Source of the DNA: Candidatus Aminicenantota bacterium
GTDB lineage: Bacteria; Acidobacteriota; Aminicenantia; JAMOAD01
Length of the DNA: 43,516 nucleotides
Assembly (NCBI GenBank): GCA_027061995.1
Contig: JAMOUT010000052.1
Coordinates: 1-43,516, forward strand
Direction: 5' to 3'
Of this stretch, positions 142 to 7,700 are shown piece after piece; the stretch's first letter is position 1, and the number at the start of each line of letters is the position of its first letter. The notes under the pieces are model-generated. The model was not told the DNA's origin. It saw only the letters and a program-made list of their open reading frames with translations, and did no database searches. The position numbers and the translations under genes are program-made.

Positions 142-170
142 TTGACAAAAGTATTCTTTTAAATTAGAAT
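142..170 (+). promoter_or_regulatory. Sigma70-type promoter for the left-end module
   Basis: TTGACA at 142-147 is followed by a 17-nt spacer and TAGAAT at 165-170, which is nearly consensus. The expected transcript start is near 177, giving a leader of about 120 nt before the ATG at 299. No other promoter of similar quality was seen before 5.3 kb, so it probably drives the whole four-gene block. Confidence 0.65.
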
Positions 171-231
171 TATATATTGAAAAAAATACTAAAAAAAATG
201 AGAAATTTTTTATAAGTTAATGGAGTATAGA

Positions 232-297
232 ATGTTTAGCAATAGTATTGGAGTAAATATTATGAATAAACCAAAAATTTTTAATTCGGGGGTTTAA
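232..297 (+). CDS. Possible 21-residue upstream ORF (leader peptide)
   Basis: An ATG at 232 preceded by GGAG (222-225) opens a 21-codon frame that stops at 295-297, one base before the ATG of the next gene. A second in-frame ATG at 262 also has GGAG upstream (250-253). The downstream gene has only a G-run as a ribosome site, so translation of this peptide could help ribosomes reinitiate there. The peptide resembles nothing I recognise, and it may be chance. Confidence 0.25.
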   Translation: MFSNSIGVNIMNKPKIFNSGV

Positions 298-298
298 G

Positions 299-550
299 AT
301 GACAATTGATGAATTAGCTGAAAAGCTAAGCAGCGAGATGGCAACAAAAAAAGATTTAAAAGATTTAAAGGAAAAGATCTCAGCACTAACCAATGACATG
401 GAAAATGTAAAAGCTATTGTGTCATCAATCGAAAAAAGGAAAAAATTTGAAAGGACAGAAAGTTTTAATTCTGGAGGATTTGACAGAGCAATAGGACCTA
501 CAACTGGTGTGGGTTTAGATTTTAGACCCCACAGGACAGAATTTTTCTAA
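299..550 (+). CDS. Small coiled-coil protein, 83 aa, unknown function
   Basis: The protein is soluble with no signal peptide. Residues 1-55 are charged and heptad-like (repeated Lys-Asp-Leu-Lys and Glu-Lys pairs), predicting a coiled coil or helical hairpin. The last 30 residues are Gly/Phe/Arg-rich and lack heptads. Its N-terminus, a short acidic helix followed by a TKKDLKDLKE-type stretch, resembles small helical proteins common on phages and plasmids, but I cannot assign a family. It is first in a same-strand block with the membrane protein 27 bp downstream. The ribosome site is poor (a run of G about 7 nt upstream), so coupling to the preceding short ORF is possible. Confidence 0.5.
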   Translation: MTIDELAEKLSSEMATKKDLKDLKEKISALTNDMENVKAIVSSIEKRKKFERTESFNSGGFDRAIGPTTGVGLDFRPHRTEFF

Positions 551-577
551 AAAATAATTTAATCTTTGATTTTAGTA

Positions 578-1996
578 ATGGAAAGAAAAAGTATAGTGGG
601 GGTATTGATAGTTTTTTCTCCGGATGTGGAAATTACTCTTTATGAAAAAAAAGATAGAACTTCAATAAAAAAGAATCCTTTTTTTCCCTCACAAATCTTC
701 CTACCAGTCAATAAGTTAAGAAAAAAAGAAAATAACAGAATAATATATAATAATTTTTACATATCAAAAGACTCTGAATTTAATTTTAAAAAGGAAGGTA
801 GCCCCAATCTTTTTTTAGAAGGAAATTTAATACAGATAAATGAAGTCTTTTTTAATAAAAGAGTTCTTAGTTTTCTTTTTCTTTACTTTAATATAAAAGA
901 AAATGATTTTTATCATTATAATGATTTAAAAAAATACATGTATGAAAATTGGTTTGATTTATGGAAAAAGAGATCAAACATAGAATTCATAATAGGATTT
1001 GACTTTAAAGATACGCGAGATATATATTTCAAACCCACAGCTCTTTCTCAACAAATATTTAGGTTGTTTGAAGAACTTTCTGATAAAAAAACGATGAAAG
1101 ACTATTATTTTTCTTTTCAAGTTAATGAGTTTATTGCAGAAATAAAAACTGAAAAACAGGATTATTCAGAAGCTTTTGGAAACGGTTTTCTTTATGGAGA
1201 GTTGATTTTTAAAGAAACTTTTCTTCAGTGGATGGAATACAAATGGAGACCCTTTAAATTAACATTAAAAATATCTCTTATAAGAATGGTCCTTTCCTTC
1301 TCTATGAAAAGTAGATTATTGAAAAGTTTTACAATTTCAAGATTTATCATGTTATTAATGCTTTTCTATTCTATCTCATCATATGAAAGACAAAAAAGAT
1401 TATCTAACAATCCAGACAAAAAAATTCATAAGAGAAAATTGAAAAATATTTTTGTTTCTTTATGGAAAAAAGTTTGTTTTGTTACTATTTTTCTTTTCGG
1501 CCATTATTTCACTTCTCATGACTCTTTTAACTATACATTCTTTTCAGATGCTATCTCAAAAATTAAGGGCTTTTCAAATGAAATATTTACCTCAATCCCC
1601 AAGACTTCAGCAGAAGAAAAAGCCGAATCTTCCTTGCTGGAAAGATGGAACAGATTCAGAGAAATCATAAGACTCTATCAATATATAATCCTCCCAATAC
1701 TCGCGACAGGTTTAATAACTTTAATCGTAAATGAAAATGTGAACAAGAAAATACCCATACTCAAAATTACTAAAAACCTTATATCATTACAAAACATTTT
1801 TCCTTCTTTTGTTAAAGATATTATCTTAATATTTCTGTTGCTTTTAATTTCAATTTTCTTATCTTTTGTTTTTTTCGTGTGTTTGACTTATTTCTTGATG
1901 CTTTTATACTTTTTAATTAAAGAAGGATATTCCCTGTTGAAAAGATTTTTTATCTGTTTATGGTTAGAAGAATATGGAATCCATGACAAACTCTAA
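578..1996 (+). CDS. Multi-pass membrane protein, unknown family, 472 aa
   Basis: About 250 N-terminal residues look soluble, with alternating aromatic and charged segments. Hydrophobic segments follow around residues 255-275, 295-312, 370-390 and a long pair at 410-450. I recognise no domain. The ATG at 578 is preferred over an in-frame TTG at 566, although neither has a convincing Shine-Dalgarno. The 3' end overlaps the next gene by 23 bp, implying translational coupling with the metallopeptidase-like protein and a shared membrane complex. AAA, AAT and TTT codons are heavily used, and base composition is lower in GC than the genes beyond 5.5 kb, suggesting an accessory origin. Confidence 0.6.
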   Translation: MERKSIVGVLIVFSPDVEITLYEKKDRTSIKKNPFFPSQIFLPVNKLRKKENNRIIYNNFYISKDSEFNFKKEGSPNLFLEGNLIQINEVFFNKRVLSFLFLYFNIKENDFYHYNDLKKYMYENWFDLWKKRSNIEFIIGFDFKDTRDIYFKPTALSQQIFRLFEELSDKKTMKDYYFSFQVNEFIAEIKTEKQDYSEAFGNGFLYGELIFKETFLQWMEYKWRPFKLTLKISLIRMVLSFSMKSRLLKSFTISRFIMLLMLFYSISSYERQKRLSNNPDKKIHKRKLKNIFVSLWKKVCFVTIFLFGHYFTSHDSFNYTFFSDAISKIKGFSNEIFTSIPKTSAEEKAESSLLERWNRFREIIRLYQYIILPILATGLITLIVNENVNKKIPILKITKNLISLQNIFPSFVKDIILIFLLLLISIFLSFVFFVCLTYFLMLLYFLIKEGYSLLKRFFICLWLEEYGIHDKL

Positions 1997-4814
1997 AGAT
2001 AAGAAGCAAGATAAATATAAATGGATAACACTCTATTTATATGAAGATGCAAAAGAAAAAGGGGAAGCTCTACAAACAAGAATAGCCCATCTCGGAATAA
2101 TGTCAAAATACTTATTGGAAATTGACGAACAGTTCTCTCTGGCAAGAACAAATGAGTCATCCAAAGACAAAGAATCCTTTGAGAGTTTAAGCAGAGAATT
2201 TGAATCAATGTTCGAAACTATTAGCACAAAATTAAAAAAATTGGAAAAGAGATTAAAAAAATTGGAAAATGGAAATGGAACAGAGGATGACTTTACTCTA
2301 ACAAATCTTTTCCTTAAAGAAATATGGGAATTCAATCTCTTATTAAAAAAATATTCAGAATTCATAGGCAAAGCTCAAACTTTTTTCAAGAATCAAAATG
2401 ATAGTAAAGTAATATCAATGATTTCTTCCGTTTTTCCGAAATTCAATCCGAAGGTGCTACTCAGGAATAATACTATTTTCTGCGATGAATTACTACAAAA
2501 ACATATCAAACCAATCTTAAAAAATATTTTTGAATCAATACAGAAAAAGGGAGAAGAGGACCAGAAGGGAAACAAGAGCGATCATGATAAAAATAGCGAA
2601 AAATATACCGAGCCAATAAGCCTTTCGGAGCTTGGAGGAGAGCTAAAATTTATGATGGATACCGAATTAATAGATACTCTGCTTCATACAAATTACAAAC
2701 CAGAAGCAACTCTCATCTCCTCCCCATTTTGGAATATAGAATTCCCGCGATACTTGCCATTATTCATACATGAAATGGCTCATATAGGTTTTCTATCCGG
2801 GATAGTAAAAAAATGGAAAGAAAACTATTTTTCAAGCCTTGGTAAAAATGCCATTGAAAAATTTCTTGATGATTTATATTACGAGATTCATGAGGCAATG
2901 CAGCAAATATCAAAATATGAGACAATAAATACCACAAGCGAAACCATTCTGGAAGAGATTCTTGTTGATATAATCAGCTTTATTCTAATGGGGCCGACTT
3001 ATTTGAATGCATTGTTCCTTGAAGCTATTACTTCGGTCAGAATAGAAGCACAGATAAAGTTTTCTGACATAAAGATAGGAAATCCTGGTGGCGTAATGAT
3101 CTTAAGGGTTATGACTCTTTTAGAATATTTTAGGATATACCTTGAAAAGTATAAAAAGAAAATTAATAAAGAAAATAAAGAAAATAAAGAAAATATTGAT
3201 TATATTAAATTTTTAGAAGAGTATTTACATGATATTGAAGAGTTTTTAGTTAATATTGCAAAAAATGTTCTTAATGATGTTAATAAAAGTGTTTATAATA
3301 CATTCGTTTTTCTCGCCGAACTTGCGAGGAACTTGACTACAAAGATTTTTTTCAATTTGGAAACCAATGAGTATTTTGCCGATAAATTAAAGGAGTATTC
3401 CTTATTAAATTATATGGTTGAGTATATTCCTAAGAAATATAACATGAAAAAGTTAATAATCAGTTTGAATGCTTTGGATAATTTTAATTTAATCGAAGCA
3501 AACCATCAAAAAGTAATAGAAGAAATTATAAATTTTATAAAATTCATATTCGAAGATACTCAACATAAAGAGGATACAACGCCCAATAGAAGATATAAAA
3601 AAAGTAAAGAAAACATAATAGAGGAGAATTGGGAAGGAATAGCACTTAATCTGATATGGTTAAAAAATATAATAAATTTCAAAGAAAAAGAAGACAAAAA
3701 CGGGGAAACATCAGAAAAAGAAAAATGCCATTTTAAAGAGGGGCAACTTTTAAGATTTTTCCAGGATTTGTTTTATGTTCTAAAAGAGAAAAATAAAGAG
3801 GAAGAGAAAAAGGAAAAGAAAAAGAAAAATAAAAATATATTAAACCTATACCTCAGACATTATCATCTGCGAAAACCTGTGGAATTATTGTTTTTTAACC
3901 TTACGGATATAAGAAAGACAAAATGGTTGCAAACTTTTGTGAAAAATATTTCAAAAGAAGATAAAACTATTTACTCTTGGTCATTGATGGGAGAATATGA
4001 TTATTTGATATTCAGAGATAAATATAAGGGAAGAAGTAAAGACAATCTTACAGTCAAAGCCTATGAGCATTTTTATAAGAAAAATAAAGAAAAAGATTCT
4101 TCTATTCAAGAAAGTAACAATAACATAGCTTTTCAAGTATATCCGGTAATTGCTGACAAAATATGTATCTCTAAAGAGGATAATCAAAATAAAAATGATA
4201 ATAATAATAACTCTGTAATTATCTCAAGAATACTTTTCAAATCTGATTCACAAATTTTCGAATTATTGGAGGCCCTAATAAATAAAAAGGATTGGAAAAC
4301 GATTAAACCAAAATATATCTTGAGATCAACTTCATGGGATTCTTTTATTATTGTATGGGGTATAAAAAATACAAAACCAGATTTAACTCCTTTATATACA
4401 AAATCAGATTTAACTAATTTGTTTAAAACCCTATTAAATATTCCTGAAATCAATAATAATAACAGTGATTTTAAAGTAATGCATAATTTATTAAAGGAAT
4501 CAGTGTATAGTAACACATATATAGGCTTTAATAGAGAGTCATCCACGGGAGACTCTTCCACAGAAAACATACTGTGGGATCTAAAATCTTCTGTGTTAAT
4601 AGAACAAAATGGTGAAAATTTAACTTTACGAACAATCGTTTCTTATATAGGAAATCCTCAGATGGTAGAGGCATTAGAAAGAAAACTGAAAGAAAAAGAG
4701 ATGAAATATAAAACAAAATATCCGTCGGGGACAAACATGATGGAAATCTATATTCATGGGATTTCAAATTTAGATGAAATAAAAACAATATTAGAAATTT
4801 TTACAACACCTTAA
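1974..4814 (+). CDS. Large putative zinc metallopeptidase (HEMAH motif), 946 aa
   Basis: Residues 266-270 read HEMAH, fitting HExxH, where both His bind zinc and Glu is catalytic. About 58 residues later lies a Glu-Glu-Ile-Leu-Val-Asp segment (327-332) followed by a Gly-Pro-Tyr turn. The E-x3-D spacing suits a gluzincin third ligand plus supporting Asp. Residues 1-110 are heptad-rich coiled coil with a duplicated 7-residue block (LKKLEKR, then LKKLENG). Lys/Glu/Asn-rich low-complexity linkers occur near 400-410 and 600-625. There is no signal peptide, and the C-terminal 300 residues match nothing I know. It starts inside the preceding membrane-protein gene (ATG 1974, alternative 1983) and is followed after 13 bp by another membrane protein. 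The HExxH call is direct; peptidase activity and substrate are inference. Confidence 0.6.
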   Translation: MESMTNSKDKKQDKYKWITLYLYEDAKEKGEALQTRIAHLGIMSKYLLEIDEQFSLARTNESSKDKESFESLSREFESMFETISTKLKKLEKRLKKLENGNGTEDDFTLTNLFLKEIWEFNLLLKKYSEFIGKAQTFFKNQNDSKVISMISSVFPKFNPKVLLRNNTIFCDELLQKHIKPILKNIFESIQKKGEEDQKGNKSDHDKNSEKYTEPISLSELGGELKFMMDTELIDTLLHTNYKPEATLISSPFWNIEFPRYLPLFIHEMAHIGFLSGIVKKWKENYFSSLGKNAIEKFLDDLYYEIHEAMQQISKYETINTTSETILEEILVDIISFILMGPTYLNALFLEAITSVRIEAQIKFSDIKIGNPGGVMILRVMTLLEYFRIYLEKYKKKINKENKENKENIDYIKFLEEYLHDIEEFLVNIAKNVLNDVNKSVYNTFVFLAELARNLTTKIFFNLETNEYFADKLKEYSLLNYMVEYIPKKYNMKKLIISLNALDNFNLIEANHQKVIEEIINFIKFIFEDTQHKEDTTPNRRYKKSKENIIEENWEGIALNLIWLKNIINFKEKEDKNGETSEKEKCHFKEGQLLRFFQDLFYVLKEKNKEEEKKEKKKKNKNILNLYLRHYHLRKPVELLFFNLTDIRKTKWLQTFVKNISKEDKTIYSWSLMGEYDYLIFRDKYKGRSKDNLTVKAYEHFYKKNKEKDSSIQESNNNIAFQVYPVIADKICISKEDNQNKNDNNNNSVIISRILFKSDSQIFELLEALINKKDWKTIKPKYILRSTSWDSFIIVWGIKNTKPDLTPLYTKSDLTNLFKTLLNIPEINNNNSDFKVMHNLLKESVYSNTYIGFNRESSTGDSSTENILWDLKSSVLIEQNGENLTLRTIVSYIGNPQMVEALERKLKEKEMKYKTKYPSGTNMMEIYIHGISNLDEIKTILEIFTTP
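3165..3194 (+). repeat. 9-bp tandem repeat inside the metallopeptidase gene
   Basis: The unit AATAAAGAA occurs three times in tandem plus a partial copy, encoding an Asn-Lys-Glu run in a linker. Because the unit is a multiple of three, copy-number change would alter linker length without a frameshift. Confidence 0.7.
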
Positions 4815-4827
4815 GAGGAGGTTTTTT

Positions 4828-5334
4828 GTGGAAAATAAACAGCAGGGAAAAAGTCAAGAAAAAAAAGACATGTGTGAAGACATGTATGAAAAAATAAAGA
4901 TGTTGTTAAGTTATATTATTAGATCTCTTTCTTCGGGAATAAAGAGGATTCTTAATTTTTTTAATTCAATTTTTGAATTTCTTTCTTTGAGAAAAAAAAA
5001 GATTCTCAATTATTTAGTTAATTTTATAAAAAAAACGGGGATATATTCTTTTAATTTCATCTCTTCTATTATTGTTGGATTATCTCTTGCTCTATTTATT
5101 TATACAACTTATAATTTTTTTGGTAAAATTCCCTCTTTTCTTTTCCTCCTTTTCATTCCACTGAGATTGCTTTTTATAAATAATATAACAGAAGATATGA
5201 AAAAATACGGAAAATATTATGTTTCCTTCTTTATCTTATTTTTTCTTGTTTTCTATTATTTCGCACCTAATAAAGTAAATATATGGGATATCTTTGAAAA
5301 AATTATTACTTTGCTTTTAAAATTTGTTAAATAG
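4828..5334 (+). CDS. Small membrane protein, 168 aa, unknown function
   Basis: The start is GTG at 4828, chosen because GAGGAGG at 4815-4821 lies 6 nt upstream. Residues 1-70 are basic and amphipathic. Three hydrophobic segments follow at roughly 72-95, 100-118 and 130-147, and a basic amphipathic tail ends the protein. No domain is recognised. It lies 13 bp downstream of the metallopeptidase-like gene and closes the same-strand block, so it is probably a membrane partner of that module. Composition is as AT-rich as its neighbours. Confidence 0.6.
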   Translation: MENKQQGKSQEKKDMCEDMYEKIKMLLSYIIRSLSSGIKRILNFFNSIFEFLSLRKKKILNYLVNFIKKTGIYSFNFISSIIVGLSLALFIYTTYNFFGKIPSFLFLLFIPLRLLFINNITEDMKKYGKYYVSFFILFFLVFYYFAPNKVNIWDIFEKIITLLLKFVK

Positions 5335-6460: not shown

Positions 6461-7078
6461 CTATTTTTCCCCTTTAACAAATCCTATCGCATAAGAAAGT
6501 GCGGTTAGGAATAGAAGAGGGGCGAGAATCATCAGAACAAAACTTTGTGAAAAGAAAAGGAGTTGTTTTCCCGCTTTAAGAAAAGCAAGAGCAATCCCTC
6601 CGAGACCGATAAGTGTGCCTCCTACGGTTATGAAAAGATAATAACAATTAACTTTTTCTTTTAATCTTAAAAAAATGGGGATAAAGAATATTGTTAATCC
6701 TGCTATTGCATGAAAAATCGGATAAACTATTTTTCCGAGTTTCACCATTCCTCCGTATCTTGTAACGGCAATTAAAATTAATCCGATTAACATTAATATA
6801 CCATACCAACCTTCATTTTTCTTGTAGTGTTTTGCTATAAGTCCGGTAGCAAGTCCGAATGGGATTATTCCCGCTACAACAGCTACAAAATTATTTCCGA
6901 GAGCTCCCCAACCGAATATTATCAAAAGAACTCCCGCAACAAGAAGCACAAGAAAAGAGAGAATAAAATACAGATTGCAGCTGCATTTTTCCTCTTTGTT
7001 CTTTTTGAAGAAGAAAAGGAGCATATAAATTGCAACGAGACCTGTTAAAAGTAAAAAAACGATGTCTAAGATTTTCAT
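6461..7078 (-). CDS. Six-helix membrane protein, paralogue of the next gene upstream, 205 aa
   Basis: It has about six hydrophobic helices, with a short basic loop (KKNKEEKCSC) after the first. It shares a layout and a C-terminal signature with the 197-residue protein encoded just upstream: a glycine-rich turn, then LAFLKAGK here and LAFLKTGK there, then a final hydrophobic segment. The two therefore look like a tandem duplication. No metal-binding histidine pattern or enzyme motif is apparent. GGAGG lies 7 nt upstream of the ATG. It is last in the oxidase-like operon, with 28 bp separating it from its paralogue. A role as an oxidase accessory or assembly subunit is inferred from context only. 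Confidence 0.6.
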   Translation of the reverse strand: MKILDIVFLLLTGLVAIYMLLFFFKKNKEEKCSCNLYFILSFLVLLVAGVLLIIFGWGALGNNFVAVVAGIIPFGLATGLIAKHYKKNEGWYGILMLIGLILIAVTRYGGMVKLGKIVYPIFHAIAGLTIFFIPIFLRLKEKVNCYYLFITVGGTLIGLGGIALAFLKAGKQLLFFSQSFVLMILAPLLFLTALSYAIGFVKGEK

Positions 7079-7106: not shown

Positions 7107-7700
7107 TTATATTCCGAGTGCAAAAAATAGTGTCATTAAAAAAAGGATAGGTAATAGGATTGTGAATATGGTTTTTTCGGATAATATGGGTTTTCCCGTT
7201 TTTAAAAAAGCGAGAAGACCCCCTCCCATACCTATCAATGCTCCACCCATACTTATGGATAAAAGATTAAATTTCGGATTTCCCGAAATAAACAGGATGA
7301 AAGGGAGAAAAACAATTATTAATCCTGCCGTCCCATGACCTATTATTATTGATAATATCGACAGTGTTTTTCCTCTGGTGAATCTTGTTATCAGAATCAG
7401 GAAAAAACTGATTATGCCGAAAATCAGATAATAGGTATAATATTCAGAATAAAATATTCTCACTATGGCGATTGCAAAACTTATGGGAATAAGAGCCGCT
7501 GCTACAATAACAAATCTATTGGTTAAAATTTCAAAATTAAAAATCAGAATCAAAAGAGAAGCGATAATTATTACCCCGAATCCTATCGTAAAAAAAAGAA
7601 TAGCCGTATTATCATAGTCGCCCATCCCTTTAACAACTTCATAAGAGGCTATCAATAGAATGAATAATAAGCAAAACTTATCAATAACGGATGTTTTCAA
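7107..7700 (-). CDS. Six-helix membrane protein, first of a paralogous pair, 197 aa
   Basis: Translation starts at a TTG (7698-7700), supported by GGAGG five bases upstream; that GGAGG also encodes the last two glycines of ctaB. About six hydrophobic helices fill the protein. Near the C-terminus a Gly-Met-Gly-Gly-Gly turn is followed by LAFLKTGK and a last helix, matching the downstream protein. I recognise no family. The tight junction with ctaB argues for co-expression with heme O synthesis and the oxidase-like protein. Confidence 0.6.
   Translation of the reverse strand: MKTSVIDKFCLLFILLIASYEVVKGMGDYDNTAILFFTIGFGVIIIASLLILIFNFEILTNRFVIVAAALIPISFAIAIVRIFYSEYYTYYLIFGIISFFLILITRFTRGKTLSILSIIIGHGTAGLIIVFLPFILFISGNPKFNLLSISMGGALIGMGGGLLAFLKTGKPILSEKTIFTILLPILFLMTLFFALGI

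Follow-up and report, generated by a model that had tools for sequence, protein, structure and literature searches.

What do four closely packed, AT-rich genes at the very end of a contig encode, and does the HEMAH motif in the product of the longest of them mark a true metallopeptidase? The genes lie in a stretch of 43,516 nucleotides from Candidatus Aminicenantota bacterium (contig JAMOUT010000052.1, forward strand), which was analysed at its full length and is termed the window below. An earlier note on this DNA had described here one promoter, four same-strand genes with short gaps or overlap and a GC content lower than that of the surroundings, and all three features were recovered. The four open reading frames lie on the + strand within 299–5334 and code for proteins of 83, 476, 946 and 168 aa, i.e., P1 (299–550), P2 (566–1996, with a TTG start, an ATG at 578 being also possible), P3 (1974–4814) and P4 (4828–5334). 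P2 and P3 overlap by 23 nt, and the 13-nt gap between P3 and P4 holds a good ribosome-binding site (AAGAGGAGG). The ORF lengths of the module are far above chance expectation, as 200 Markov sequences contained no stop-free stretch of more than 131 codons, and codon usage supports the annotated frame for P1–P3 and, marginally, for P4. The sigma-70-like site TTGACA-17-TAGAAT (142–170, +) matches the consensus at 11 of 12 positions and ranks first among 32 promoter-like sites; since shuffled sequences yield 31.5 such sites, it is by itself weak evidence for a promoter. A terminator-like site was looked for at the module and none was found. The GC content of the module is 27.3% vs. 34.0% for the remainder of the window, where no stretch of the same size falls below 30.0%. 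Upstream, bases 1 to about 127 constitute a repeat with a strong hairpin (13–60, z-score −6.1). Two other contigs, C59 and C37, end in 127 and 106 bases identical to it (an assembly overlap), and its diverged copies are dispersed through the genome. Because the contig of the window broke within this repeat, the sequence upstream of 142 lies beyond it.

Three of the four products are orphans, as relatives of P1, P2 and P4 were not found in the genomes and databases searched. P1 is charged and helical and can plausibly be regarded as a coiled coil, the adaptor of the earlier note being a putative role. The two membrane proteins announced in the earlier note are recognizable as such: P2 has a soluble N-terminal half and about four hydrophobic segments in its C-terminal half, and P4 has three hydrophobic segments (3-TM). 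None of the proteins P1–P4 gave a significant match to Pfam, NCBIfam or PADLOC families, P3 included, and none matched the anti-phage systems of PADLOC-DB 2.0.0 up to E = 1.

For P3 the earlier note had claimed a peptidase with HEMAH and a downstream E-x3-D segment. The motif HEMAH (2769–2783, +) would supply H266 and H270 as zinc ligands and E267 as the catalytic Glu; E328-x3-D332 (2955–2969, +) holds the predicted third zinc ligand, E328, and a conserved Asp, and is followed, after the Glu helix, by the family signature G340-P341-x-Y (2991–3002, +). HExxH arises in 2.6% of shuffled P3 sequences, and together with a later ExxxD in 0.6%, so HEMAH taken alone is suggestive at most. The motif was reduced to E-x3-D-[hydrophobic]2-...-GP-x-[YF] and GTDB genomes were scanned with it, an in-frame HExxH upstream serving as the filter, which left at least 26 proteins. 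A profile of 26 members matches P3 with 32 bits. Since the same motif had served for the selection, it was removed for a control, together with all that follows it, and HEMAH was held fixed in 1000 shuffles; P3 ranked second of 1001. The family set comprises at least 59 non-redundant proteins, and in the conservation alignment of 38 of them H266, E267, H270, E328, D332 and G340 (P3 numbering) are invariant. Where the earlier note had left the choice between Glu327 and Glu328 as ligand, the alignment decides for Glu328, as Glu327 is not invariant. At the level of sequence, this conservation settles HEMAH as a real motif. The existence of a coherent zincin family and the membership of P3 in it are well supported by the alignment and the profile, and the claim that P3 is a real zincin-type peptidase (gluzincin, clan MA), with predicted activity, is supported by the relatives, which keep the H, E, H and downstream Glu.

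Structure prediction bears on the same point. The AlphaFold2 model of whole P3 is poor (pLDDT 55), whereas the two active-site helices are modelled well (local pLDDT 86–89): HEMAH sits in helix 258–274, with local values up to 89, and E328-x3-D332 in helix 319–339, with values of 86–88. A far better model was obtained for the relative L092 (34 sequences, pLDDT 91, pTM 0.92), in which strands lie between 119 and 151, HExxH is in helix 159–174 and E249/D253 are in helix 243–260, the two helices standing behind a small sheet. Strands, HExxH helix and then Glu helix is the order expected of a gluzincin. The L092 model has no significant match in the PDB (best E = 0.2) and none among viral structures; no sequence match below E = 1 was obtained, and a sequence search with P3 found no relative in the PDB. 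It is most improbable that P3 is some unrelated helical protein in which HEMAH arose by chance: the frequency of HExxH in shuffles, the strong divergence of P3 and its poor overall model would fit such a view, but six residues are family-invariant, the masked control keeps P3 near the top, and the active-site helices are the best-predicted part of the model.

P3 is nevertheless remote from everything found, with no close relatives in 198 related genomes, in the plasmid collection or among the GTDB matches listed. Its C-terminal extension of about 325 aa (residues 621–946; 3834–4811, +) is absent from all relatives found and hence peculiar to P3 among them; in the model the last ~75 residues (4584–4811) take the form of an alpha/beta plait with a weak resemblance to ACT or eIF1, and the weak Foldseek matches of the P3 model are confined to them. 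Some leads were discarded: single-sequence matches of P3 at E ~1e-4 are noise (they fall in stop-containing frames or opposite known genes, in antisense), a proposed similarity of the middle of P3 to the C-terminal half of deaminase-associated relatives was rejected, detectable similarity being confined to the core, and viral contigs matched gapped HExxH...ExxxD DNA patterns by chance only. Exact peptides of the zincin part of P3 were not present in viral contigs. The family itself is patchy. The whole-genome searches together covered 1988 genomes, and the profile found members in 4 of 142 genomes of the window's class (its own included), in 14 of 396 of its phylum and, in five other phyla, in 8/296, 9/251, 3/249, 0/174 and 7/173 genomes, five of the last 7 being weak. 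Carriers are bacteria and at least one haloarchaeon. Neither Pfam nor NCBIfam has a name for the family, and the related zincins do not match PADLOC. One Anaerolineae protein of 845 aa (L060, 840–3374, + strand) apparently consists of two tandem zincin halves, the first of which has the GP-x-Y signature and lacks HExxH.

Gene neighbourhoods divide the family into three groups. The type A cassette consists of a small protein of ~150 aa, a zincin of ~440–510 aa and a dCTP-deaminase-like protein of ~210 aa, the latter matching Pfam DCD at E 1e-30 or better and in one case passing the NCBI dCTP deaminase cut-off (L043, L058, L064, L092, L119, L129, L141, L163–L165, L201, L205). L163–L165 come from the window's own class, and a search for L092 in plasmids or phages gave no match. 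Zincin and deaminase are fused once, in a 709-aa protein (L155/L213). A regulator gene, MerR-like or AbrB-like by eye, is often near type A. The type B cassette consists of a PD-(D/E)XK nuclease (PDDEXK_1, Cas4-like), a long pAgo (PADLOC pAgo class II, E 2e-270), a small protein of ~120–150 aa and a zincin of ~380 aa (L188–L192, L198, L204, L208, L209, L241, L242). The pAgo-type zincin is present on five plasmids; on annotated plasmids an HTH or sigma-factor gene precedes the operon, the zincin is labelled hypothetical, and CBASS, HEPN/Toprim, ubiquitin-like or restriction genes lie near. Among the loci listed, a dCTP-deaminase-like partner occurs in at least 17 and pAgo in at least 14, with PD-(D/E)XK in 11 of these; a small partner gene adjoins the zincin in at least 33. 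The third clade (L032, L062, L073, L097, L109, L194–L196, L203, L206, L207, L217) neighbours very acidic low-complexity proteins, with runs like DELDEFDE and ELELE, and large proteins without a Pfam match, with an amidohydrolase nearby in two loci; no evident defence partner was seen there. The family tree follows partner types, which need 3 changes on the maximum-likelihood tree vs. 13 in shuffles. The longest branch by a wide margin is that of P3 (4.8), the position of which is unsure, nominally on the pAgo side.

The resemblance to a defence module noticed earlier gains substance from the relatives, which sit in defence-type operons with pAgo and nuclease genes and on plasmids. The module claim itself is supported for the peptidase in P3 and not supported for the four genes as a conserved set, as P1, P2 and P4 have no relatives found: homologues of P3 retain HExxH, yet among the matches listed a membrane pair of the P2/P4 type is absent beside every other family zincin examined, and the data searched hold no second copy of the P1–P4 arrangement. 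Of the two traits of homologues that would together have spoken against the earlier note, a missing HExxH and a lack of co-occurrence with the membrane genes, the second was thus observed and the first was not. P1 (83 aa) does not match the ~120–170-aa helical small protein of the relatives. When the type-B small protein is compared with P3, residues 46–114 reach 8.5 bits and rank first of 1000 shuffles, this segment being a low-complexity helix.

Could the module serve the cell envelope instead of immunity? Two family members touch Pfam M48, scoring near the cut-off, and P3 shares with M48 proteins of the HtpX/Oma1 type the HExxH and a downstream E-x3-D on a second helix. Together with P2 and P4 it might form an M48/HtpX-type membrane peptidase that clears damaged proteins, which would suit its membrane partners and the HtpX-like size of the weak matches of 280–300 aa. 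However, P3 has no match to PF01435 (M48) up to E = 1, is predicted to be soluble with no membrane span and is absent from the 198 related genomes, and the family has a patchy distribution and goes with pAgo and dCTP-deaminase-like genes, all of which makes envelope quality control rather improbable.

The zincins of pAgo operons, e.g., WP_219275944.1 of a Rhizobium sp. L51/94 plasmid and WP_013921747.1 of a Runella slithyformis plasmid, both annotated "hypothetical protein", resemble P3 in the zincin core, where H, E, H, E, D and G do not vary, in being last or near-last in a compact operon and in their patchy, mobile background; they differ in being about 380 aa long, without the extension of P3, and in having as partners a PD-(D/E)XK nuclease, pAgo and a ~120–150-aa protein, not membrane proteins. 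The deaminase-linked zincins (L092, L163–L165 and the fused L213) share the zincin core, whereas their partner is an enzyme of the dCTP-deaminase/dUTPase fold and their similarity to P3 is to the core only. The main text of one survey describes the long-B pAgo systems BPAN, BPAS and BPAM, in which one core is combined with swappable effectors including nucleases and trans-membrane proteins (PMC10620215). The P3 module is unlike these in that none of P1–P4 in the available sequence matches a pAgo profile, and P1–P4 do not show the BPAM-like trait of a pAgo gene and a membrane protein in one operon. The main texts of surveys of pAgo neighbourhoods list Cas4-like or PD-(D/E)XK nucleases (PMC2743648, PMC6299218, PMC10620215), and in the same main texts no peptidase in pAgo operons appears. 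A text search of the open-access literature, covering main texts of published papers, found no such pAgo-linked peptidase described.

The reading preferred here, to which we give a little less than an even chance, is that P3 is a strongly diverged, unnamed gluzincin-type peptidase of defence-type operons with interchangeable partners, which in the window are membrane proteins. The four-gene cluster, patchily distributed and AT-rich as it is, would then probably be a defence-type module with membrane partners and a predicted activity. A defence-like module is favoured because the relatives adjoin pAgo, PD-(D/E)XK and dCTP-deaminase-like genes, and we infer the defence role from these neighbours, i.e., through guilt by association. 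Several facts count against it: P3 has the longest branch and an unsure place in the tree, its similarity to the family does not reach beyond the core, the available sequence shows neither pAgo nor a nuclease or deaminase next to P3 (P1–P4 match none of the pAgo, nuclease and dCTP-deaminase-like profiles, the contig being cut upstream), the third clade is without an evident defence partner, and the P1–P4 arrangement has no second copy in the data searched.

The change of partners around a constant peptidase would also suit a regulator. Like ImmA/IrrE, P3 might cleave or relieve a repressor or inhibitor and in this way turn on the operon or a membrane effector, and the HTH or sigma-factor genes that precede type-B operons, with the MerR- or AbrB-like ones seen by eye near type A, fit this idea. 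The window module has no visible regulator gene, though, and P3 has no match to the ImmA/IrrE M78 family of Pfam up to E = 1, so that a regulatory role is judged unlikely, if still worth weighing.

If the defence reading is followed, the membrane proteins would take the partner slot, the C-terminal extension of P3 would sense a trigger and thereby unlock the zinc site, and P3 would then cleave P2 or P4; alternatively, P2 may hold P3 at the membrane while another target is cleaved. In either case, the cleavage could damage the membrane or arrest growth. As L213 carries its partner enzyme fused C-terminally to the zincin, the extension of P3 may plausibly act as an effector or a sensor. The unique extension and the orphan partners would also fit fast-evolving conflict genes, i.e., a secreted or contact-dependent antagonism module made of a peptidase effector and a membrane helper; this is very unlikely, as neither a signal peptide-like start nor a secretion marker nor an immunity-type gene was recognized and the relatives are intracellular by context.

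More broadly, the operons may represent undescribed immune modules in which the zincin is the common switch between recognition and action, coupled to a swappable partner (pAgo and nuclease, dCTP-deaminase-like enzyme or membrane proteins), a generalization that we put forward as possible and distinctly tentative. Were it true, prokaryotic immunity would gain an unnamed peptidase family among its components, and one enzyme would connect the guide-dependent pAgo operons with those of nucleotide enzymes and with membrane modules.

Downstream of the module, on the opposite strand, the genes are ordinary ones, coding for an acyl-ACP thioesterase, UbiA and an FGE-sulfatase. The membrane protein of 6461–7078 (− strand), for which a Pfam match was not found, is similar to that of the adjacent gene on the same strand, 7107–7700 (GGTLIGLGGIALAFLKAGK, GGALIGMGGGLLAFLKTGK).
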